Source: Burkholderiales bacterium (GTDB lineage: Bacteria; Pseudomonadota; Gammaproteobacteria; Burkholderiales; Casimicrobiaceae). Taken from it: a DNA stretch of 63,541 nt. Under the pieces are notes generated by a model that was not told where the DNA came from, did not search any database, and saw only the letters and a program-made list of their open reading frames with translations. Below are positions 40,586 to 52,842 of this stretch, in pieces. The DNA is taken from the NCBI GenBank assembly GCA_020851255.1, contig JADZDA010000011.1, positions 1-63,541 on the forward strand, in the 5' to 3' direction. A program made the translations under genes and the position numbers. Each line of letters opens with the position of its first letter. Positions within the stretch are counted from its first letter, which is position 1.

Positions 40586-42571
40586 ATGACCTACTTCGTC
40601 ACCGGAGCGACCGGCTTCATCGGCCGCTATCTCGTCGCCAACCTGCTCAAGCGCGGCAAGCCGGTCTACGCGCTCGTGCGCAAGAGCTCGGTCAAGAAGC
40701 TCGACGCGCTGCGCGAGAGCCTGGGCGCGAACGAAAAAACGCTGATCGCCGTCCCCGGCGATCTCGCGAAGAAGCACCTCGGCGTGTCCGACGCCGATCT
40801 CAAGAAACTCAAGGGCAAGGTCGACCACGTCTTCCACCTGGCGGCGATCTACGACCTGAACGCGTCTGCCGAGGAGCAGAAGGTCGCCAACGTCGACGGG
40901 ACGCGACACGCCGTCGAGTTCGCCGAGGCGGTCCAGGCCGGTTGCTTCCACCACGTCTCGTCGATCGCGGCGGCCGGCCTCTACGACGGCGTCTTCCGCG
41001 AGGACATGTTCGACGAGGCCGAGGACCTCGACCACGCGTACTTCAGCACCAAGCACGAGTCCGAGGGCGTCGTGCGCAAGCGCTGCAAGCGGCCCTGGCG
41101 GATCTACCGGCCGGGATTCGTCGTCGGCCACTCGAAGACCGGCGAGATCGACAAGATCGACGGCCCGTACTACTTCTTCAAGACGATCCAGAAGATGCGC
41201 GACATGCTGCCGCCGTGGATGCCGACGATCGGCATCGAGGGCGGACGCATCAACATCGTCCCGGTCGATTTCGTCGCCGACGCCCTCGACCATCTCGCGC
41301 ACAAGAAGGGCCTCGACGGCAAGTGCTTCCACCTGACCGATCCGGCCCCGCACCGGATCGGCGAGGTGCTCAACATCTTCGCCAAGGCGGCGCACGCGCC
41401 GCAGATGACGTTGCGCGTCAACGCCAAGATGTTCGGCTTCATCCCCGCGCCGGTCGTCTACGGACTCGCCTCGCTCGCCCCGGTCAAGCGCGCCATCAAG
41501 GTGACGCTGAACGACCTGGGCATCCCGCGCGACGTGTTCCAGTTCGTCAACTGGCCGACCCGCTACGACAACCGCGAAGCGGCGAAGGCGCTCAAGGGCT
41601 CCGGCATCGAGGTCCCGCCCCTCGAGAACTACGCGTGGCGGCTCTGGGACTACTGGGAACGCAACCTCGATCCGGACCTCTTCATCGACCGCAGCCTCGC
41701 CGGCCGGGTCAAGGGCAAGGTCGTCGTCGTCACCGGCGGCTCGTCGGGCATCGGGCAGGCGACCGCGCACAAGCTCGCGGAGGCCGGCGCCAGGGTGATC
41801 ATCGTCGCCCGCGACCCGGAGAAACTCGAGGCGACGCGCAAGGAGATCGCCGCGCACGGCGGCACCTGCATCACCTATTCCTGCGACCTGACCGACCTGG
41901 CCGCGATCGACGCGCTGTCGAAGAAGATCCTCGCCGAGCACGGCGGCGTCGACTTCCTGGTCAACAACGCCGGCCGCTCGATCCGGCGCGCCGTCGTCAA
42001 CTCGATCGACCGTTTCCACGATTTCGAGCGCACGATGCAGCTCAACTACTTCGGCGCGGTCAAGCTGATCCTCGCCTTCCTGCCGGCGATGGTCGCCCGC
42101 AAGAAGGGCCACGTCATCAACATCAGCTCGATCGGCGTGCTGTCGCGCGCGCCGCGTTTCTCCGCGTACGTCGCGTCGAAGGCGGCGCTGGACGCCTTCT
42201 CCGAATGCGCCGCCTCCGAGCTGCTCGACAAGGGCGTCCACTTCACCAACATCAACATGCCGCTGGTCCGCACGCCGATGATCGCGCCGACCAGGATCTA
42301 CGAAAACGTGCCGACGCTCTCCCCTGAGGAGGCCGCGGGGCTGGTCGTCGACGCGATCGTCCACCGGCAGGTCCGGATCGCGACGCGGCTCGGGATCTTC
42401 GGCGCGATTTCGCACGCGATCGCGCCCAAGCTCACGCAGGTGCTGCTCAACACCGCGTTCAACATGTTCCCGGATTCCTCCGCCGCGCAAGGAAAGAAGG
42501 ACGGCGAGTCGCAGGCGCTCACCGCCGAGCAGATCGCGTTCGCGCAGATCACGCAGGGGATCCACTGGTAG
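40586..42571 (+). CDS. two-domain fatty acyl-CoA reductase (Maqu_2507/FACoAR-type)
   Basis: MTYFVTGATGFIGRYLVANLL N-terminal reductase; HHVSSIAAAGLYDGVFREDMFDEAEDLDHAYFSTKHESE; C-terminal SDR KVVVVTGGSSGIGQATAHKLAEAGA; closely resembles remembered Marinobacter Maqu_2507 across its length. Confidence 0.88.
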   Translation: MTYFVTGATGFIGRYLVANLLKRGKPVYALVRKSSVKKLDALRESLGANEKTLIAVPGDLAKKHLGVSDADLKKLKGKVDHVFHLAAIYDLNASAEEQKVANVDGTRHAVEFAEAVQAGCFHHVSSIAAAGLYDGVFREDMFDEAEDLDHAYFSTKHESEGVVRKRCKRPWRIYRPGFVVGHSKTGEIDKIDGPYYFFKTIQKMRDMLPPWMPTIGIEGGRINIVPVDFVADALDHLAHKKGLDGKCFHLTDPAPHRIGEVLNIFAKAAHAPQMTLRVNAKMFGFIPAPVVYGLASLAPVKRAIKVTLNDLGIPRDVFQFVNWPTRYDNREAAKALKGSGIEVPPLENYAWRLWDYWERNLDPDLFIDRSLAGRVKGKVVVVTGGSSGIGQATAHKLAEAGARVIIVARDPEKLEATRKEIAAHGGTCITYSCDLTDLAAIDALSKKILAEHGGVDFLVNNAGRSIRRAVVNSIDRFHDFERTMQLNYFGAVKLILAFLPAMVARKKGHVINISSIGVLSRAPRFSAYVASKAALDAFSECAASELLDKGVHFTNINMPLVRTPMIAPTRIYENVPTLSPEEAAGLVVDAIVHRQVRIATRLGIFGAISHAIAPKLTQVLLNTAFNMFPDSSAAQGKKDGESQALTAEQIAFAQITQGIHW

Positions 42572-42611: not shown

Positions 42612-43517
42612 TCAGCGCGGGCCGAGCAACTCGGCGACGACGAGGCGGGCGACGTCCGCGTCGATCAGCAGGGCGTTGTGCCCGATGCCGACGAGCTCGA
42701 CGTTGCGCGCGCCCTCGAGCCGCGACGAGAGCTGGGGCGCGACCATCGAGTCGTGCCACGACCAGATCGACACGATTTCGGTCGTCGTGGGCAGCGGTTC
42801 GGCGGCGAGCGCCTCGAGCCAGGCGTTGCCCGGCCGCAGCTGCGAGAGCGAAGTGCCCGGGAAGCACCGGGCGTGGACGCTGCCCGCGTAGGGCGCGGCG
42901 AGCGTGACCGCGAGCCGGAGCTTCGCGCCGCCGTGCTTGCGCAGGTACGCGCGCGTGACGATGCCGCCCATGCTGTGCGAGACGATCGCGACCGACGTCG
43001 CGCCGGTCTCGGCGAGCACGCGATCGATCTTCGCCGCGAGCTGGTCGACGAACCGATCGATCGACGCGAGCGGCGGGCCGTAGGAGATCGCGTACAGCGG
43101 TCCCACGCCGGCGGCCGCGAGGCGGCGGCGCAGCGAGGTCCACACGCCGGCGTTGCACAGCACGCCGTGGACGAGGAGGACCGGGCGCTCCGCGCGCCGC
43201 GGCGGATCGTCGGGCACGAGCTCGCGGTAGAGGAGCATCCGCGGCGCCGAACCCAGCAGCGCACGCCATTCGTCGGCGACGAGCGCGAGGGTCGCGAACG
43301 GTCCGATCCGCCGGTCCGGCGGCCGGCGACTGCGCCAGAACCAGGCGATGACGAAGTTCGCCAGCGTGAGCGCGAGCACCAGTGCGAAATAACCGCCGGC
43401 GAATCCGGCGATCCACGGCCATGCCGATCCGCCGGCCGCGGGCGCGCGCGCGGCGAACACGACGCACGCGGCGACGGCGGTCAGGAACAGGACGGCGAAG
43501 CTCGCAGCCGACCACAT
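42612..43517 (-). CDS. alpha/beta hydrolase (lipase/esterase-like) with N-terminal TM helices
   Basis: RPVLLVHGVLCNAGVW; SHSMGGIVTRAYLRKHG (GXSXG variant). Confidence 0.85.
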   Translation of the reverse strand: MWSAASFAVLFLTAVAACVVFAARAPAAGGSAWPWIAGFAGGYFALVLALTLANFVIAWFWRSRRPPDRRIGPFATLALVADEWRALLGSAPRMLLYRELVPDDPPRRAERPVLLVHGVLCNAGVWTSLRRRLAAAGVGPLYAISYGPPLASIDRFVDQLAAKIDRVLAETGATSVAIVSHSMGGIVTRAYLRKHGGAKLRLAVTLAAPYAGSVHARCFPGTSLSQLRPGNAWLEALAAEPLPTTTEIVSIWSWHDSMVAPQLSSRLEGARNVELVGIGHNALLIDADVARLVVAELLGPR

Positions 43518-43609: not shown

Positions 43610-44548
43610 TCAGTACCCCGGGCGCGGGATCCAGTGGGCGCGCCAGCTCCGCAACGCCGTGATCGTCGAGGCGAGGTCCGGGATCAGGACCATCCCGGGG
43701 ACGGTCTTGCGGATGCGGCGGGTCATGTCCCCGCCGGCCCAGATCGAGACCTGGGGCGGCAACTGCTGGCGCAGCGATGCGAGCCCCTCGAGCGCGAGGC
43801 GCAACGGGAACGCGCCCGAGAACGACAGCGCCAGGATGTGCGCCTTGTGCGCGATCGCCGCGCGCCGGACGTCCTCGATCGGCGTCTGGGGACCGAGCGA
43901 GATGCAATTGACGCCCTCCGGGCACAGGAGCGCCTCGACCATCAGCAGGCCGATGCCGTGCTGCTCGTTGGGGAACGTCGTCAGCAGCACGCGGGGCACG
44001 CCGGTGGTCTGGCGCGGGAACGCGTTGATCGCGGTCCTCAGCACCACCTGGAGCTGCTCGGTGTAGAGGTGTTCCTCGAACACCTGCAGCTCGCCGCGCA
44101 TCCACGCATCGCCGACCGCCTGGTTGAGCGGCGTCACCGATTCCAGCACGAACTTCTGCAGGCCCTGGCGCATCACGAGCTGCGCGAGCGCGTGCTGGAG
44201 CGCGGGCGCATCGTGCGTCTGCAACAGATGGATGATCTCGCGCTCGAAGCTCTGCGCGAGCGCGTCCGGCCGCTCGCTCGCCCGGGCGTCCGACAACGCC
44301 TTCAGTTCATCGAGCGGGAGCCCGATGATCTTGCCCGGCCGCAGCCCCGCGTCCATCAACCGCTTGATCGCCCGGAGGCGGGCGACCTCGGTGGGACCGT
44401 ACTGCCGCTCGCCATGTGGATCGCGACCGGGCGACGGAAAGCCGTAGCGCCGTTCCCACATCCGCAGGACGTCCTTGGACAAGCCCGTCTCGCGTTCGAC
44501 CGCGCTGATATTGAATACCGAGGTACCCACGGAGGCGACAGCACTCAT
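43610..44548 (-). CDS. litR: MerR-type regulator with cobalamin-binding domain, LitR/CarH-like photoreceptor
   Basis: MerR HTH FNISAVERETGLSKDVLRMWERRYGFP; WMRGELQVFEEH = W-x9-EH; EQHGIG = E-x-H-x-x-G; GGD near C terminus. Confidence 0.88.
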   Translation of the reverse strand: MSAVASVGTSVFNISAVERETGLSKDVLRMWERRYGFPSPGRDPHGERQYGPTEVARLRAIKRLMDAGLRPGKIIGLPLDELKALSDARASERPDALAQSFEREIIHLLQTHDAPALQHALAQLVMRQGLQKFVLESVTPLNQAVGDAWMRGELQVFEEHLYTEQLQVVLRTAINAFPRQTTGVPRVLLTTFPNEQHGIGLLMVEALLCPEGVNCISLGPQTPIEDVRRAAIAHKAHILALSFSGAFPLRLALEGLASLRQQLPPQVSIWAGGDMTRRIRKTVPGMVLIPDLASTITALRSWRAHWIPRPGY

Positions 44549-44567
44549 TTTCGTCCTAGACAAACGG

Positions 44568-44596
44568 TTGACAAATGTGTTTTCAGCCCTTATCGT
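44568..44596 (+). promoter_or_regulatory. candidate sigma70 promoter TTGACA-17 nt-TATCGT toward folE2
   Basis: Hexamers read directly. Confidence 0.6.
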
Positions 44597-44620
44597 ACGG
44601 CCTAGTAGACCGAATGTCCA
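44592..44620 (-). promoter_or_regulatory. candidate sigma70 promoter TGGACA-17 nt-TACGAT toward litR
   Basis: Minus-strand hexamers; -10 overlaps the -10 of the opposing promoter. Confidence 0.5.
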
Positions 44621-44627
44621 GGACATT
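44613..44627. promoter_or_regulatory. perfect 7-1-7 palindrome AATGTCC-A-GGACATT, candidate LitR operator
   Basis: Exact symmetry; overlaps the predicted litR -35. Confidence 0.6.
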
Positions 44628-44818
44628 TACCCCATATGGCCGCGAATCGTCCAGCCTAAACCCTGGACGGAGCATTGCTGTCGAATGTCCGAGTCCGGTG
44701 TCGTCGCGACCGTCGTTCCTCGTCGTGTCGGCATGCGCGGCCCTGGCGCGCCTGGCGGGCGCCCCGGACCGCGCCGGACTCGTACCGCCGCCCCTGTCAC
44801 CGAAACGGAGCTGACGCC

Positions 44819-45631
44819 TTGAACGCCCCCGAACGCCTGTTCCTCCCCGACACCCAGTCCCTGCCCGACGGGAGACGTCTCGCGATCCAGAAGGTCGGCA
44901 TCAAGGGGTTGCGCTATCCGGTCGCGCTGCTCGACCGCGACGGAGCGACCCGGTCGACGGTCGCGACGTTCACGATGACCGTCGGCCTGCCGCACGACGT
45001 CAAGGGGACGCACATGTCGCGCTTCGTCGAGATCCTCGAGGGCGTGCGCGCACCGCTGGACCTCGACGGATTCCGCGCGATGGTCGATCGGATGCTCGGC
45101 CGGCTCGGCGCCAGCGACGGCGAGGTCGAAATGCGCTTCCCCTGGTTCATCCGCAAGGCCGCGCCGGTCTCGGGCGTCGAGAGCCTGCTCGACTACGAGG
45201 CCGCGTGGACCGCGACGCGCAAGGGCGGGCGAACCCGGGTCGAGGTCGCGCTGACCGCGCCGGTCACGAGCCTGTGCCCGTGCTCGAAGAAGATCAGCGA
45301 CTACGGCGCGCACAACCAACGCTCGCACATCACCATCCGCGCCGAAATCAGCGTCGGGTCCGTCGCGCTGGAAGAACTCGCCCGAGTCGCCGAGGACGAA
45401 GCGTCCTGCGAGGTCTGGGGGCTGCTCAAGCGCCCCGACGAGAAATGGGTCACCGAACGCTCGTACGACAACCCGAAGTTCGTCGAGGATCTGGTCCGCG
45501 ACATCGCGCTGGGCCTAGCCCGGGATCCGCGCATCGGCCGGTTCGTCGTCGCCAGCGAGAATTTCGAATCCATACACAACCATTCCGCGTACGCCGAGAT
45601 CGAGGGCGTGGGGGCGGGCCGCGACGGCTGA
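44819..45631 (+). CDS. folE2: GTP cyclohydrolase FolE2 (type IB)
   Basis: CPCSKKISDYGAHNQRSHITI signature; TTG start inferred. Confidence 0.93.
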   Translation: MNAPERLFLPDTQSLPDGRRLAIQKVGIKGLRYPVALLDRDGATRSTVATFTMTVGLPHDVKGTHMSRFVEILEGVRAPLDLDGFRAMVDRMLGRLGASDGEVEMRFPWFIRKAAPVSGVESLLDYEAAWTATRKGGRTRVEVALTAPVTSLCPCSKKISDYGAHNQRSHITIRAEISVGSVALEELARVAEDEASCEVWGLLKRPDEKWVTERSYDNPKFVEDLVRDIALGLARDPRIGRFVVASENFESIHNHSAYAEIEGVGAGRDG

Positions 45632-45713
45632 CACCCGGGCGCCTGCGGGCCGCGCGCGTCGCGCGCCGCGATCGGGGAAGTTCGGCCGGGCCGCGGCCCG
45701 ACATCAGGAGAAC

Positions 45714-46997
45714 ATGGTGCGCATCGCCGTCGTAGGATCGGGCATCGCCGGGCTCTCGTCCGCGCTGCTCCTCACCCGCCAGGGACACCAGGTCAGCGTC
45801 TTCGAGTCCGACGCGCGCCCGGGCGGTCACTCGCACACCGTCGATGTGACGCTCGACCGACTGACCTTCCCGGTCGACACCGGCTTCCTCGTATTCAACG
45901 ACCGCACCTATCCCCGGCTCGTGCGGTTGTTCGACGAGCTGGGCGTCGAGAGCGTCCCTTCGTCGATGTCGTTCTCGGTGCGCAACGACCGCGCTGGCGT
46001 CGAGTGGGCCGGGACCAGCGCCGCAGCGCTGTTCGCGCAGCCGCGCAACGCCGCCCGACCCGCGTTCTGGCGGATGCTCGCGGACATCGTCCGCTTCAAC
46101 CGCGATACCACCGCGCTCGAAAAAGCGGATCGTGTGGCGCGGGTTCCGCTCGGCGATTACCTCGAGGCCGGCCGCTACTCCGCCGCGTTCCGCGACTGGT
46201 ACCTGGTGCCGATGGCCGCTGCGATCTGGTCGTCCCCGGCGAAGGACATCCTCGATTTCCCTTTGCCGTCGTTCGTCCGCTTCTGCCACAACCACGGCCT
46301 GCTCGCGATCGCCGACCGGCCGCAGTGGCGAACGGTGCGCGGCGGTTCGCGCACGTACGTCCGCAAGATCGTCCAGCAGCTCGGGGACCTGCGGCTGTCG
46401 ACGCCGGTCGAGCGGGTCCGCCGCCTGGCCGGACACGTCGAAGTCGATACGCCCGGACGCCGGGCCGAGAGATACGACGCGATCGTGCTCGCCTGCCATG
46501 CCGACCGTTCGCTCACGCTGCTCGCCGATCCCACCCATGCCGAGGCGAGGCTGCTCGCCGACATCCGCTACCAGTCCAATCGTGTGGTCCTGCACACCGA
46601 CGCCGAGCTGCTGCCGCGGGCCAGGCGCGCGTGGGCGAGCTGGAATTACCTCGCCGCCGACGATCCGACCGGTACGCGCCCGGTGGCGGTCAGCTACCTG
46701 ATCAACCGGCTCCAGCCGTTGCCGGTCGAGCGGCCGGTCGTGGTGACGCTCAATCCGGCGATCGAGCCCGCCACGCACTCTGTGATCGACGAATACGAGT
46801 ATTCGCATCCGCTGACCGACGCGCGCGCGGTCGCCGCCCGGCGCGCGATCGCCACGCTGCAGGGCACGCGGCGCACCTGGTACGCGGGCGCCTGGCTGGG
46901 CCACGGGTTCCACGAAGACGGGATCGCGTCCGCGCACGCGGTCGCCGACTCGATCGCCCGGCACACGCAGTCGGCGCGCGTGCTGGCCGCCGCGTGA
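45714..46997 (+). CDS. FAD-dependent oxidoreductase (amine oxidase / cyclopropane-FA-associated type)
   Basis: MVRIAVVGSGIAGLSSALLLTRQGHQVSVFESDARPGGHSHTVDV. Confidence 0.9.
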   Translation: MVRIAVVGSGIAGLSSALLLTRQGHQVSVFESDARPGGHSHTVDVTLDRLTFPVDTGFLVFNDRTYPRLVRLFDELGVESVPSSMSFSVRNDRAGVEWAGTSAAALFAQPRNAARPAFWRMLADIVRFNRDTTALEKADRVARVPLGDYLEAGRYSAAFRDWYLVPMAAAIWSSPAKDILDFPLPSFVRFCHNHGLLAIADRPQWRTVRGGSRTYVRKIVQQLGDLRLSTPVERVRRLAGHVEVDTPGRRAERYDAIVLACHADRSLTLLADPTHAEARLLADIRYQSNRVVLHTDAELLPRARRAWASWNYLAADDPTGTRPVAVSYLINRLQPLPVERPVVVTLNPAIEPATHSVIDEYEYSHPLTDARAVAARRAIATLQGTRRTWYAGAWLGHGFHEDGIASAHAVADSIARHTQSARVLAAA

Positions 46998-47010
46998 GAA
47001 CGTTCGCGCC

Positions 47011-47826
47011 ATGAACGCCCGCGTCGCCGACGACGACGCCTACGCGCTGGACGCCCTGCACGCGGACGGCTGCGCGATCATCGAAGGCGAGATCGCCCAT
47101 CGCCGATCGCGTCCCGCGGTCCACGCGTTCCGCTACCCCGGCTTCTGCCTGCGACTGCCGCTGTCGCGGCTCGCCGAACTGCCGCGCCGGGGAGTCGCGC
47201 TCAACCGCGCGGGATGGGTCGCCTTCCACGAGCGCGACCACGGTCCGCGCGACGGCACCTCGCTGCTCGGCTGGATCCGCGCGCTCCTCGACCGCGAAGG
47301 CGTGGCCGCCGACGGCGAGATCGTGTTGCACGCGTTCCCGCGGATGCTGGGCTACGTGTTCAACCCGGTGAGCTTCTGGGTCGCGCACGACCGCCGGGGC
47401 GCGGTGCGCGCGGTGCTCGCCGAAGTCCGCAACACTTTCGGCGAGCGGCACGACTACCTGGTCGCGCACGTGGACGGTCGTCCGATCGCCTCCGGCGAGA
47501 CACTGGAGGCGCGCAAGGTCTTCCACGTGTCGCCGTTCTGCGCGGTCGAGGGCCGCTACGCGTTCCGCTTCGCGTTCGGCGCCGACCGCTGGCTCGCGCG
47601 TGTCGACCATTTCGACGGTGCGCAGCCGGAGCCGCTGCTCGAGACCTGGTTCTCGGGTCGGCCGGCGCCGCTGTCCCCGCGCGCGACGCGCGCGCTACTG
47701 TGGCGCTACCGGTGGTTCACGCTCGGCGTGATCGCACGCATCCACTGGCAGGCGCTCCGGCTCTGGCGCAAGCGCGTCCCCTTCCACATCAAGCCCGAGC
47801 CGCCGGCGAAGGTCCTGAGCCGCTGA
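47011..47826 (+). CDS. DUF1365 family protein
   Basis: AIIEGEIAHRRSRPAVHAFRYPGFCLRLPLSRL...FNPVSFWVAHDRRGAVRAVLAEVRNTFGERHDYLV. Confidence 0.9.
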   Translation: MNARVADDDAYALDALHADGCAIIEGEIAHRRSRPAVHAFRYPGFCLRLPLSRLAELPRRGVALNRAGWVAFHERDHGPRDGTSLLGWIRALLDREGVAADGEIVLHAFPRMLGYVFNPVSFWVAHDRRGAVRAVLAEVRNTFGERHDYLVAHVDGRPIASGETLEARKVFHVSPFCAVEGRYAFRFAFGADRWLARVDHFDGAQPEPLLETWFSGRPAPLSPRATRALLWRYRWFTLGVIARIHWQALRLWRKRVPFHIKPEPPAKVLSR

Positions 47827-49064
47827 TGTCCGCCACCGTCCCCTTGCAGCCCCTGCGACCGGCCCGATGCCGATCGCTGCCCGCCTCGGCGCGGATGCTG
47901 TTCGCGCTCCTGTCCGCGATGGACCGCGGCCGGCTCGAAGTCGTCGCGCCCGACGGGGTGTCGTACGCGTTCGGACCGGGCGGGACGCCCTGCACCGGCG
48001 TCCCGGCGCACGCGGCGGTCCTGCGGCTCCACGACTGGCGGGTCGCGCGCGCGGCGCTGTCCGGCGGCGACGTCGGCTTCGGCGAGAGCTACATGGCCGG
48101 GCATTGGGACACGCCCGATCTCGTGCACCTGCTCACGGTGCTCGCGGCGAACCAGCCGGCGCTCGAGCGCGCGTTCTACGGCCGCGCGTGGACCCGCGGG
48201 CTCCTGCGGCTGCGCCACTGGCTCAACGCGAACACGCGGCGCGGGTCGCGCAGGAACATCGCCGCGCACTACGATCTGGGCAACGATTTCTACGCCCTGT
48301 GGCTCGACCCGACGATGACCTACTCGTCGGCGCTCTTCGACGGCGACCGCGACCGCTCGCTGGAAGCCGCGCAGAAGGCGAAGATCGGCCGGCTCCTCGA
48401 CGCGCTCGACCTCGCGCCCGGCGCGCGGATCCTCGAGATCGGCTGCGGCTGGGGCGGCTTCGTCGAAGCGGCCGCGCGCGCGGGTCACCGCGTCACCGGC
48501 GTTTCGCTCTCCCGGGAACAGACCGCGTACGCGGCCGAGCGCATCCGGCGCGCCGGGCTCGACGCGAGCGTCGATCTGCGCCTTCAGGATTACCGCGACG
48601 TGCGCGAGCGCTACGACGGCGTCGCGTCGATCGAGATGTTCGAGGCGGTCGGCGAGCGCTACTGGCCCGCGTACTTCCGCGCGGTCCGCGATGCGCTCGT
48701 CCCCGGCGGCCGCGCGGCGATCCAGGCGATCACCATCGCCGACCATCGGTTCGAGCGCTACCGGACGCAGTCGGACTTCATCCAGCGCCACGTCTTTCCC
48801 GGCGGCATGCTCGCGTCGCCCGCGCGCCTCGCCGCCGAAGCCCGGGCCGCGGGCCTGGCGATCGCCGGGGAGCACGCGTTCGGCCGCGACTACGCCGAGA
48901 CACTGCGGCGCTGGCTCGCCGCCTTCGACGCGCACGCCGAGGCGATCGCCCGGCGCTTCGACCCGACGTTCGTGCGCTGCTGGCGCTTCTATCTCGCCTA
49001 CTGCGCCGCCGGATTCGACACCGGGACCACCGATGTCCACCAGTTCACGCTCATCCGCTGCTGA
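47826..49064 (+). CDS. cyclopropane-fatty-acyl-phospholipid synthase family methyltransferase
   Basis: NIAAHYDLGNDFYALWLDPTMTYSSALF; ILEIGCGWGGFVEAAARAGHRVTGVSLSREQ. Confidence 0.93.
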   Translation: MSATVPLQPLRPARCRSLPASARMLFALLSAMDRGRLEVVAPDGVSYAFGPGGTPCTGVPAHAAVLRLHDWRVARAALSGGDVGFGESYMAGHWDTPDLVHLLTVLAANQPALERAFYGRAWTRGLLRLRHWLNANTRRGSRRNIAAHYDLGNDFYALWLDPTMTYSSALFDGDRDRSLEAAQKAKIGRLLDALDLAPGARILEIGCGWGGFVEAAARAGHRVTGVSLSREQTAYAAERIRRAGLDASVDLRLQDYRDVRERYDGVASIEMFEAVGERYWPAYFRAVRDALVPGGRAAIQAITIADHRFERYRTQSDFIQRHVFPGGMLASPARLAAEARAAGLAIAGEHAFGRDYAETLRRWLAAFDAHAEAIARRFDPTFVRCWRFYLAYCAAGFDTGTTDVHQFTLIRC

Positions 49065-49617
49065 CACGCTCGCCGCGGCGCTCGCCGTCTGGTTCGCGGT
49101 CGCCGCCGCGATGCCGGCGGCGGCCGCGGATGCCCGGCGCGCACCGGCGCTGCCGGTCGCCGTGGCCGAACTCGCGCCGGACCTGCGTGTGCAGGGTGGC
49201 GGCGAATTGCGCTTCCTCGGGCTGCCCGTCTACGACAGTTACTACTGGGCGGGTGCGCGCGGACACTCCACGGCCGACCCGTTCGCGCTCGACCTCCACT
49301 ACCGCCGCGCGTTGAACGGGGAACGGATCGCCGAGCGCAGCATCCACGAGATCGAGCGAGCGGGTGGCGCCGGCGTCGCGGAGCTCGCGCGCTGGGGCGC
49401 GGCGATGAAGGCGATCTTCCCCGATGTCGGCAAGGGCGACCGCCTGACCGGTGTCAATCTCCCCGGCCGCGGCGTCCGGTTCTTCCACAACGGCAAGCCG
49501 ATCGGCGAAATCGCCGAGCCCACGTTCGCGCGGGCGTTCTTCGGAATCTGGCTCGATCCGGGCACCTCCCAGCCCGAACTGCGGCGCAGATTGCTCGGCG
49601 AGCGGCCAATTCCGTGA
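49033..49617 (+). CDS. chalcone isomerase-like periplasmic protein
   Basis: Signal-peptide-like N terminus; GGGELRFLGLPVYDSYYWAG...RALNGERIAERSIHEIERAG. Confidence 0.82.
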   Translation: MSTSSRSSAADTLAAALAVWFAVAAAMPAAAADARRAPALPVAVAELAPDLRVQGGGELRFLGLPVYDSYYWAGARGHSTADPFALDLHYRRALNGERIAERSIHEIERAGGAGVAELARWGAAMKAIFPDVGKGDRLTGVNLPGRGVRFFHNGKPIGEIAEPTFARAFFGIWLDPGTSQPELRRRLLGERPIP

Positions 49618-50951
49618 AGCGGGCGCAGGTTCGGGGCGCGGCGGGGAAACACGCCGGCATCGGCGCCGCGAACCGCGCCGCGTACGGCGCGTTCGCGCTG
49701 CCACTCGCGATGGGCGCGCTGCCGCTGTACGTGCACCTGCCGAAGTTCTACGGCGAGGTCTACGGCCTGGGGCTGGTCACGCTGGGCGTGCTGCTACTCG
49801 CGCTGCGCGCGGTCGACGCGATCGCCGACCCGCTGATCGGCGCATGGAGCGATCGCGGTCCGCCGCGCAAGCGGTTGATCGCGTGGAGCGCGCCGGTCCT
49901 CGCGTTCGGCATGGTCGCGCTCTACACGCCGCCGGTCCGGGGCGAGACGGCGTTGCTCCTTTGGCTCGGCACCGCGCTGGCGATCGTCTACGCCGCGTAT
50001 TCGATCGCGACGATCAACCACAACGCCTGGGGCGCCGAACTGTCGGCCGATCCGGTCGAACGCACACGGATCACCGCGACCCGCGAAGGACTCGCCCTCT
50101 GCGGCGTGGTCGTCGCGAGCGTACTCCCCGCGCTCCTCGGCGGGTCGGAGGGTGAGGCCGCCGGCCTGCCCCGATTCGCATGGGTCTACGCTGCGATCGT
50201 CGCCCTGGGTCTCGCGGTCACGCTGATCGCGCCCGCCGCACCGCGCCCCGGCACCGCGCCCGGGTCGACGCTCGCGGGAGTGCGCGAGGCGCTCGCCGAT
50301 CCGTTGTACCGGCGGCTACTCGCCGTCTATCTCGTCAACGGGATCGCGGCCGCGGTTCCGGCGACCCTCGTCCTCTTCTACATCGCCGACGCGCTGCAGG
50401 CCGAGGGCCGTCAAGGGCACTTCCTCGCGCTCTACTTCGTGTCGGGCGCCGCCTTCCTGCCGCTGTGGGTGCGCGTCTCGGCGCGCGCGGGCAAGGTCCG
50501 AGCGTGGGGCGCGTCGATGATCGTCGCGGCGGCGGCGTTCGTCTGGGCCGCCTTGCTGGGCGCGGGCGACGTCGCCGCCTTCGCGGTCGTTTGCGTGCTG
50601 TCCGGTGCGGCGCTCGGCGCCGACCTCGCGCTGCCGCCGTCGATCGTCGCCGACGTGGCCGGGCGGCACGCCAGGTCTCGTCCGACCGGCGCGTACTTCG
50701 GCGTATGGACGCTCGCGACCAAGCTCAATCTCGCGCTCGCCGCCGGCATCGCGTTGCCGCTCGTCTCCGCGCTGGGCTACGAACCGGGTTCGCGCGACGA
50801 TTCCGCGCTGCGTGCGCTCGCGATCGTGTACGCCGCGCTCCCCTGCGGGCTCAAGGTCGCCGCGCTCGCTGCGCTGCGGACCTACGCCGCGGCCGCCGCC
50901 GCGGACGCGGCCTCGCCCCCTCGAATCTCGCCGATACGGTATCCCGGATGA
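49614..50951 (+). CDS. MFS transporter (glycoside/sodium symporter type)
   Basis: Multiple TM segments; VHLPKFYGEVYGLGLVTLGVLLLALRAVDAIADPLIGAWSDR. Confidence 0.88.
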   Translation: MKRAQVRGAAGKHAGIGAANRAAYGAFALPLAMGALPLYVHLPKFYGEVYGLGLVTLGVLLLALRAVDAIADPLIGAWSDRGPPRKRLIAWSAPVLAFGMVALYTPPVRGETALLLWLGTALAIVYAAYSIATINHNAWGAELSADPVERTRITATREGLALCGVVVASVLPALLGGSEGEAAGLPRFAWVYAAIVALGLAVTLIAPAAPRPGTAPGSTLAGVREALADPLYRRLLAVYLVNGIAAAVPATLVLFYIADALQAEGRQGHFLALYFVSGAAFLPLWVRVSARAGKVRAWGASMIVAAAAFVWAALLGAGDVAAFAVVCVLSGAALGADLALPPSIVADVAGRHARSRPTGAYFGVWTLATKLNLALAAGIALPLVSALGYEPGSRDDSALRALAIVYAALPCGLKVAALAALRTYAAAAAADAASPPRISPIRYPG

Positions 50952-51508
50952 AACGCCCGAACCCGCGCTCCCCGTCACTCATCGCCGGCTTCCGCGCCGC
51001 CCTGGCCGCGATCGGCGTGCTCGGCCTCGCGTCCTGCGCGAGCGTCGACGTCTCGCAGTACCGCTCCGAACGGCCCGCGCTCGATCTGGCGCGCTACTTC
51101 GACGGCACGCTCGACGGCTGGGGCATGTTCCAGGACCGCTCGGGCGCGGTCGTCACGCGATTCAACGTCGTCGTCGAAGCGACGTGGCGCGACGCCACCG
51201 GCACGCTGGACGAGTCGTTCGAATACGCGGACGGCCGGCGCGAGCGCCGCGTCTGGACGATCGTCAAGGACGGCGACCGTTACCGGGGAACGGCCGCCGA
51301 TGTCGTCGGCGCCGCGACCGGTGTCGCCGTGGGCAACGCGCTGCGATGGAATTACGTGCTCGCACTCCCGGTCGACGGCCGCGTATGGCACATGGACATG
51401 GACGACTGGATGTTCCTCGTCGACGAGCGCACGATGCTCAACCGTACCACGATGTCGAAGTTCGGTGCGCGCGTCGGCGAGGTGACGCTCGCCTTCCGCA
51501 AGCGCTGA
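50948..51508 (+). CDS. DUF3833 family lipoprotein
   Basis: LGLASCASVDVSQYRSERPALDLARYFDGTLDGWGMFQDRSG. Confidence 0.88.
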   Translation: MKRPNPRSPSLIAGFRAALAAIGVLGLASCASVDVSQYRSERPALDLARYFDGTLDGWGMFQDRSGAVVTRFNVVVEATWRDATGTLDESFEYADGRRERRVWTIVKDGDRYRGTAADVVGAATGVAVGNALRWNYVLALPVDGRVWHMDMDDWMFLVDERTMLNRTTMSKFGARVGEVTLAFRKR

Positions 51509-51526
51509 GTTCCAACCCCCGGGATC

Positions 51527-52399
51527 ATGTTCGCCCCGCTGAATCCGCCGCTGCCCGACTGGAAGGACGCGCGCGTCTGGGTGATCGGCGCGTCGACCGG
51601 CATCGGCGCCGCGACGGCGCGAAAGCTGCTCGCGATGGGTGCGCGCGTCGCGATCTCCGCGCGGTCGGCCGACAAGCTCCGCGACCTTGCCGCCGATTCG
51701 CTCGCGGCGGGTCGCGCGGCGGTCGAGCCGCTCGATGTCACCGACGACCGCGAAGTGCACGCGGCGTGGGAGCGCGTGCGCGCGCGCTGGAACGGCATCG
51801 ATCTCGTGCTGATTGTCGCCGGTACGCACGAGGAAATCCGCGCCTGGGACCTGACGGCCGCGAAGGCGCGGGCGCTGATCGACGTCAACCTGACCGGCGC
51901 GATCTCGGTCGTCGCGGCGGTCGTCCCCGCGCTGCTCGAACGCCGCCGCGGCGCGATCGCGCTCGTGTCGTCGGTCGCCGGCTACCGTGGATTACCGCGC
52001 GCGCTCGTGTACGGCCCGACCAAGGCGGCGCTGATCAATTTCGCCGAGGCGCTGTGGCTCGATCTCGCACCTTGCGGCATCGGCGTCCACGTGATCAACC
52101 CGGGCTTCGTGAAGACGCCGCTCACCGGGCGCAACGATTTCCCGATGCCGCATCTGATCGACGCCGAAACGGCGGCCGGCGAGATCCTCGCCGGGCTGGA
52201 AAGGCGCGAGTTCGAGATCCACTTCCCGCGTGCGTTCACGCGGAAACTGAAACTCCTGCGGCTGCTGCCCTACCGCCTCTATTTCGCGGCGATCCGCCGC
52301 GCGACCGGCATCGCCGTCCACCGGCCGCCCGCACGAGACGCCGGGCCCGGGGATCCTCCCTCCGAACTTCCTCCGTCCACGCCGACGGATACCCGATGA
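51527..52399 (+). CDS. SDR family NAD(P)-dependent oxidoreductase
   Basis: DARVWVIGASTGIGAATARKLLAMGARVAISARS; YGPTKAALINF. Confidence 0.9.
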   Translation: MFAPLNPPLPDWKDARVWVIGASTGIGAATARKLLAMGARVAISARSADKLRDLAADSLAAGRAAVEPLDVTDDREVHAAWERVRARWNGIDLVLIVAGTHEEIRAWDLTAAKARALIDVNLTGAISVVAAVVPALLERRRGAIALVSSVAGYRGLPRALVYGPTKAALINFAEALWLDLAPCGIGVHVINPGFVKTPLTGRNDFPMPHLIDAETAAGEILAGLERREFEIHFPRAFTRKLKLLRLLPYRLYFAAIRRATGIAVHRPPARDAGPGDPPSELPPSTPTDTR

Positions 52400-52842
52400 C
52401 CGACGCACTCGACCACAACCGCCGCGCGACGGCCGCCGCCCGCGCGTTCTACGAGAGGTTGACGCCCGCCGACCTGGCCTCGCTGCGCGAGGTCGACGCG
52501 GACGACGCCGCCTTCCGCGACCCGTTCAACGACGTGCGCGGCGTCGACGCGATCGCCCGGATATTCACGAAGATGTTCGCCGAACTCGACGACGTCCGGT
52601 TCTCGATCCGCGAGACCGTCGTCGGCGAGGAGGGCGCGATGCTGGTCTGGGACATGACCTACCGGGTCCGTCGCTGGCGACCGCGTCAGGCGCAGTCGAT
52701 CCACGGCGCGACGCACCTCCGGTTCGCGCCGGACGGCCGCATCGCCTGGCATCGCGACTACTGGGACGCGGCCGGCGAGCTCTACGCGAAGCTGCCGCTG
52801 ATCGGTCCGCTGATGCGCTATCTCGAGCGCCGGCTCGCGTGA
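52396..52842 (+). CDS. nuclear transport factor 2 (SnoaL-like) family protein
   Basis: DAAFRDPFNDVRGVDAIARIFTKMFAELDDVRFSIRETV...WHRDYWDAAGELYAKLPLIG; 4-nt overlap with SDR. Confidence 0.88.
   Translation: MTDALDHNRRATAAARAFYERLTPADLASLREVDADDAAFRDPFNDVRGVDAIARIFTKMFAELDDVRFSIRETVVGEEGAMLVWDMTYRVRRWRPRQAQSIHGATHLRFAPDGRIAWHRDYWDAAGELYAKLPLIGPLMRYLERRLA

Follow-up and report, generated by a model that had tools for sequence, protein, structure and literature searches.

A LitR/CarH-family regulator divergent from a predicted furan-fatty-acid operon, with paired palindromic operators conserved across many betaproteobacteria

The window, by which we mean the whole 63,541-nucleotide stretch of Burkholderiales DNA analyzed here, encodes a LitR/CarH-family repressor on the minus strand (43610..44548) that is divergent from nine genes on the plus strand. 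The repressor consists of a MerR helix-turn-helix (aa 13-74), a B12-binding_2 helical bundle (aa 103-171), and a B12-binding Rossmann domain (aa 186-275), and its matches to MerR_1, B12-binding_2, and B12-binding all exceed the Pfam gathering cut-offs. The plus-strand genes encode a FolE2 GTP cyclohydrolase I (44819..45631, TTG start; Pfam GCHY-1), a UfaD-type FAD fatty-acyl desaturase (45714..46997; Pfam Amino_oxidase; PMC7380195), a UfaO-type DUF1365 protein of the furan-forming oxygenase family (47011..47826; Pfam DUF1365; PMC7380195), a UfaM-type SAM methyltransferase of the CFA synthase superfamily (47826..49064; Pfam CMAS), a chalcone-isomerase-like (CHI-like) protein with an N-terminal signal-like stretch (49033..49617; Pfam Chalcone_3), an MFS_2 transporter (49614..50951; Pfam MFS_2), a DUF3833 putative lipoprotein (LASC; 50948..51508; Pfam DUF3833), a short-chain dehydrogenase/reductase (SDR; 51527..52399; Pfam adh_short), and a SnoaL/NTF2-like protein (52396..52842; Pfam SnoaL_2). 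These genes overlap or are separated by tens of bases at most.

An earlier note on this DNA had described a nine-gene operon with a divergent regulator; every gene is present, with Pfam agreeing on each, and the coordinates were as given apart from gene starts, which we place at 44548 (regulator), 44819 (folE2), and 49033 (CHI-like, resulting in a 32-bp overlap with ufaM). The ATG at 44548 is the most likely regulator start, since the longer open reading frame reaching 44626 would contain both operators and both promoters described below. Directly downstream of the regulator, at 42612-43517 (-), lies a gene for a PGAP1/lipase-like alpha/beta hydrolase, which is also found in the loci of eight close relatives (L148-L155). 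A plus-strand gene at 40586-42571 encodes a two-domain protein, a Male-sterility-type acyl reductase joined to an SDR, and is conserved in the closest relatives' loci.

The intergenic region between regulator and operon contains a palindromic operator, TTGTCnnnGACAA, at two predicted sites to which no strand is assigned. Site 1 (44551..44563, TCGTCCTAGACAA) is a palindrome, and site 2 (44614..44626, ATGTCCAGGACAT), a perfect palindrome, lies 63 bp from it. A promoter scan of the window placed one plus-strand and one minus-strand promoter face to face between these sites: a predicted sigma-70 promoter of the operon (44568..44596 (+), TTGACA-N17-TATCGT) and one of the regulator (44592..44620 (-), TGGACA-N17-TACGAT), whose -35 falls within site 2. 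Site 1 also holds one 11-bp repeat (TAGACA/TTGACA); the dominant element is the palindrome, which occurs twice. We tried reading the operator as direct repeats only and rejected this, as it was weaker than the palindrome across 152 loci.

Of these 152 distinct loci, 119 contain the exact core TGTCnnnGACA, compared to a shuffled mean of 0.48, and 142 contain it when one mismatch is allowed, compared to 11.6 in shuffles; the core was picked from part of the same data, so these single-site statistics are somewhat favored. Spacing played no part in that choice. Pairs of sites spaced 62-64 bp apart were found in 74/152 loci (0.01 in shuffles), with an exact 63-bp spacing in 57, and a 74-bp spacing was found in 13 loci, some with an additional 11-bp repeat. 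A -35 TTGAC begins 17 bp after the start of site 1 in 52 of the 74 pairs. The conserved operators over both predicted promoters support divergent control of the operon. As 63 bp corresponds to six helical turns, a single oligomer might bridge both operators.

UfaD, UfaO, and UfaM family members are all adjacent in the operon, assigned through the Pfam families given in PMC7380195 rather than by aligning them directly with the Rhodobacter proteins. In the alphaproteobacteria Rhodobacter sphaeroides and Rhodopseudomonas palustris, the methylase UfaM, the NAD/FAD desaturase UfaD, and the DUF1365 protein UfaO are necessary and sufficient to convert cis-vaccenoyl chains to 9M5-furan fatty acid, with O2 as the source of the ring oxygen (PMC7380195). 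The earlier note had tied an FAD/methyltransferase pair to furan fatty acids; sequence supports that chemistry, and the gene set is fuller than a pair, being a complete ufaD-ufaO-ufaM. DUF1365 had been listed as well, its role as the furan-forming oxygenase family having been overlooked. By its gene families, the operon holds the complete known set for the furan-fatty-acid pathway, and furan fatty acids would be its lipid product. The UfaO model is confident and beta-rich (pLDDT 92.9), and a structural search of the PDB with it returned no match at E <= 0.001; UfaO looks like an oxygenase without a structural relative in the PDB. The invariant His30, Asn141, and His245 of UfaO/DUF1365 form a candidate metal or catalytic site.

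Among the genes that follow, the MFS protein has MFSD2A lysophosphatidylcholine symporters as its only PDB sequence matches, and the DUF3833 protein is predicted to fold as a calycin-like barrel. A lipid-handling role for both may be imagined on this basis. Since RSP1087-1089 are dispensable for furan synthesis in R. sphaeroides (PMC7380195), the roles assigned to the downstream genes are guesses.

Both hallmarks on which the regulator had been called a light-sensing CarH/LitR-type protein are present: W149-x9-E159-H160 in the helical bundle and E195-x-H197-x-x-G200, with H197, in the Rossmann domain. Its domains and residues place it in a class-I-like LitR/CarH family; as a CarH proper it falls below the NCBIfam equivalog cut-off (NF052513, 140.9 bits vs the required 400). 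Compared to TtCarH (PDB 5C8D and 3WHP), the regulator retains W131, E141, H142, H177, and G192. His132 is replaced by Met150 and G160 by Pro, and the R176-D201 salt bridge is lost, both residues being Gln. The 160 betaproteobacterial locus sequences that we aligned, from two overlapping samples of 80, have W131 in 158 cases, His142 in 156, and His177 in 155; none of them (0/160) has His132, the upper ligand of the CarH light state. In TtCarH, the H132A substitution largely blocks light-driven tetramer dissociation, leaving the protein mostly tetrameric after illumination (PMC10442372), so that the clade must stabilize its light state differently or respond less. His132 is described as present in "many" CarH proteins, that is, not in all (PMC9304148). 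Given the missing His132 and R176-D201, the light-state mechanism may differ from that of TtCarH.

From the published light signature of GxxW, EH, GxxH, and GxxxP (PMC11796333), the regulator has GxxW, EH, and GxxxP, and its GxxH reads N-E-Q-H, the Gly of this element being variable in relatives. The defining trait of class II LitR, absence of the second B12-binding domain, does not apply here, as the domain is present. The regulator is a class-I-like variant that has its own operator and probably altered photochemistry. Also present in the genome are genes for a PduO-type adenosyltransferase and several more B12-binding proteins, making AdoCbl plausible in the cell. We considered a second paralogue in the same genome (contig C222) as the sensor and rejected it, both motifs being absent. 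In one same-family relative (L047, genome G163), the operon is retained next to a regulator without the His of EH and without the B12-ligand His, offering a natural test of B12-independent control.

We sampled 300 genomes of the order, 98 of which have a clear regulator homologue by a cut that we set on the match list. DUF1365 is carried by 87/98 of these vs 58/202 of the others (odds ratio 19.6; Fisher p = 5e-24, which is indicative only, as the genomes are related). The ufaD-ufaO-ufaM genes adjoin the regulator in 62/80 loci from the order sample and in 64/80 named loci, the latter including Thauera, Zoogloea, Accumulibacter, Rubrivivax, and Azoarcus. Over these two overlapping samples, more than 120 loci from other betaproteobacteria show the arrangement. 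The association of regulator and operon is far beyond chance. Plasmid pAZKH of Azoarcus sp. KH32C has a matching gene order without folE2, including the 32-bp ufaM/CHI overlap; the regulator homologue of this strain is AZKH_RS26025. A glutathione-peroxidase-like gene stands first in the operon in 25/80 and 29/80 loci of the two samples. Tree reconstruction joins the window to two close ufa-linked relatives (0.84) and nests them among loci that have the regulator but no ufa genes; deeper branches are weakly supported. The window's operon has no glutathione-peroxidase-like gene; the sister loci L150-L154 retain the regulator beside such a gene (L154 has neither of the two), and the stretch covered contains no ufa genes. 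This difference suggests gene gain or loss at the switch.

Three known systems offer comparison. Class II LitR regulons of Pseudomonas (PplR1-3, and PmlR1/R2 with phrB, SDR, FAD, and ufaM) likewise combine a LitR-family repressor with two operators and share the FAD/UfaM/SDR operon and co-regulated fol genes, folE/folX/folM there and folE2 in their place here. In a related Pseudomonas operon, ufaM is 25-33-fold light-induced, and LitR represses at two sites, on the -35 and after the start; PmlR2 uses two TGTACA-N12-TGTACA elements, of which the first overlaps the -35 and the second follows the start (PMC9758184). The Pseudomonas proteins lack the second B12 domain, work with a LOV partner, and have phrB in the cluster and the TGTACA-N12-TGTACA motif, whereas here the B12 motifs are intact and the operator is TTGTCnnnGACAA. 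The layout is thus class II-like, with a motif of its own. CarH proteins of Thermus, Bacillus, and Myxococcales share the architecture of MerR, four-helix, and Rossmann B12 domains, the W, E, H, and lower His, a -35 adjoining the operator, and TnnACA half-sites 11 bp apart, seen here within site 1. However, the known targets of CarH are mainly carotenoid genes, and its operators are tandem 11-bp direct repeats (nnnnTnnACAn; PMC9304148), unlike the paired palindromes here, and the regulator departs from CarH in having no His132, no R176-D201, and a score under the NCBIfam cut-off. The Rhodobacter sigmaE-ChrR regulon (RSP1087-1091, ufaM) likewise deploys ufaD, ufaO, ufaM, and genes downstream of them against singlet oxygen, but there control lies with a singlet-oxygen-responsive anti-sigma factor. 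In the alphaproteobacterium Qingshengfaniella, sigmaE-ChrR adjoins ufaD-ufaO. A profile search found ChrR above the cut-off in only 2/300 genomes of the order, and matches to the ChrR anti-sigma factor in the window's own genome (86% complete) reach only about 30 bits vs the 124.5 cut-off.

From gene content, gene order, motif conservation, and operator statistics, we infer AdoCbl binding, a light response, and a furan product, and we consider it fairly likely that the locus is a self-regulated light-stress switch, with both promoters repressed in the dark and released by light. In the dark, AdoCbl-loaded regulator would bind the two palindromic operators 63 bp apart and shut the two face-to-face promoters, its own and the operon's. 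Light would break the Co-C bond and loosen the regulator oligomer, and folE2-ufaD-ufaO-ufaM-chi-mfs-DUF3833-sdr-ntf2 would then be transcribed. UfaM would methylate cis-vaccenoyl chains, UfaD desaturate them, and UfaO close the furan ring with O2, giving chains that would scavenge singlet oxygen; the CHI-like, MFSD2A-like MFS, and DUF3833 proteins probably transport or retain the modified lipids. The score under the CarH cut-off, the missing His132 and R176-D201 contact, and the L047 regulator weigh against this reading. That the operators control the operon is more certain than that light is the signal. More tentatively, we hypothesize as a genuine possibility that the regulator belongs to a separate clade of B12 photoreceptors in betaproteobacteria. 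Its members would let go of DNA without passing through the His132 bis-histidine step, would clamp a pair of palindromic operators spaced six turns apart across divergent promoters, and would govern both furan-fatty-acid synthesis and a dedicated set of envelope proteins for lipid handling (MFSD2A-like transporter, calycin-like lipoprotein, and CHI-like protein).

The complete absence of His132 from the 160 betaproteobacterial relatives, set beside the tetrameric state of illuminated TtCarH H132A (PMC10442372), and the glutathione-peroxidase-like genes that begin many operons would fit a regulator that binds cobalamin but senses B12 or redox/oxygen status instead of light, the operon being a general lipid-oxidation response. 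We regard this as unlikely: the residues contacting AdoCbl in TtCarH (W, E, H, and the lower His) hardly vary, GxxW, EH, and GxxxP of the light signature are retained, light induces the same output operon in Pseudomonas (PMC9758184), and not every CarH has His132 (PMC9304148). The LOV-driven class II LitR that controls a similar operon in P. mendocina (PMC9758184) raises the idea that the regulator here is not itself the sensor and that repression is lifted by a partner, for example a short LOV protein. We judge this very unlikely, given that both B12 motifs are intact and that class II proteins are described as having no second B12 domain.

A further alternative concerns the product, which could be cyclopropane or methyl-branched fatty acids rather than furans, as ufaM belongs to the CMAS/CFA family in Pfam. 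In CFA synthase, Cys139 and His266 hold bicarbonate. At the corresponding E. coli CFA positions, however, the UfaM-type homologues have Gln for His266 in 129/129 and Ser or Ala for Cys139 in 123/129, and the DUF1365 and FAD partners exactly match the R. palustris ufaD-ufaO-ufaM set (PMC7380195), making a non-furan product highly improbable.

Systems of this kind were already known: Pseudomonas has LitR/ufaM operons that are induced by light (LOV-driven class II; PMC9758184), and alphaproteobacteria have sigmaE-ChrR. What is new is the order-wide module in which a class-I-like regulator, lacking His132 and using an operator of its own, is paired with the complete furan operon, although class I/ufa pairs may have been described earlier. 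The ufaD-ufaO-ufaM genes and their followers thus appear under three sensors: a B12-type regulator (betaproteobacteria), a LOV-driven LitR (Pseudomonas), and sigmaE-ChrR (alphaproteobacteria). The swapping of sensors on a single photoprotection pathway can therefore be tested directly. The light-switch reading would extend B12 photoreceptors past carotenoids to membrane lipids and puts the generality of His132 ligation in question.

Operators were also found outside the locus. An exact palindrome lies on contig C224 of genome G000 (C224:32599-32611; L130:7600-7612), 76 bp upstream of an iscR-like gene. Among genomes in which the iscR start was found, an exact operator precedes it in 3/27 regulator-bearing genomes (the window's own, G240, and G102) and 0/17 regulator-free ones; we therefore rejected iscR as a general regulon member, its operator being lineage-specific at best. 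The earlier note was correct that photolyase is absent from the window; one is encoded elsewhere in the genome (contig C145), and we rejected it as a co-regulated gene, with no operator upstream of or near this copy. In the relative G218, an operator palindrome (L298:3177) separates an SDR gene from a divergently oriented pair, encoding a lipocalin and a photolyase-related (DPRP) protein, which suggests a wider light regulon in that genome. In G148, exact operators read by eye (L296, L297) lie near genes for FAS1-like proteins and an apparent MAPEG-like protein and near a MerR-family gene.
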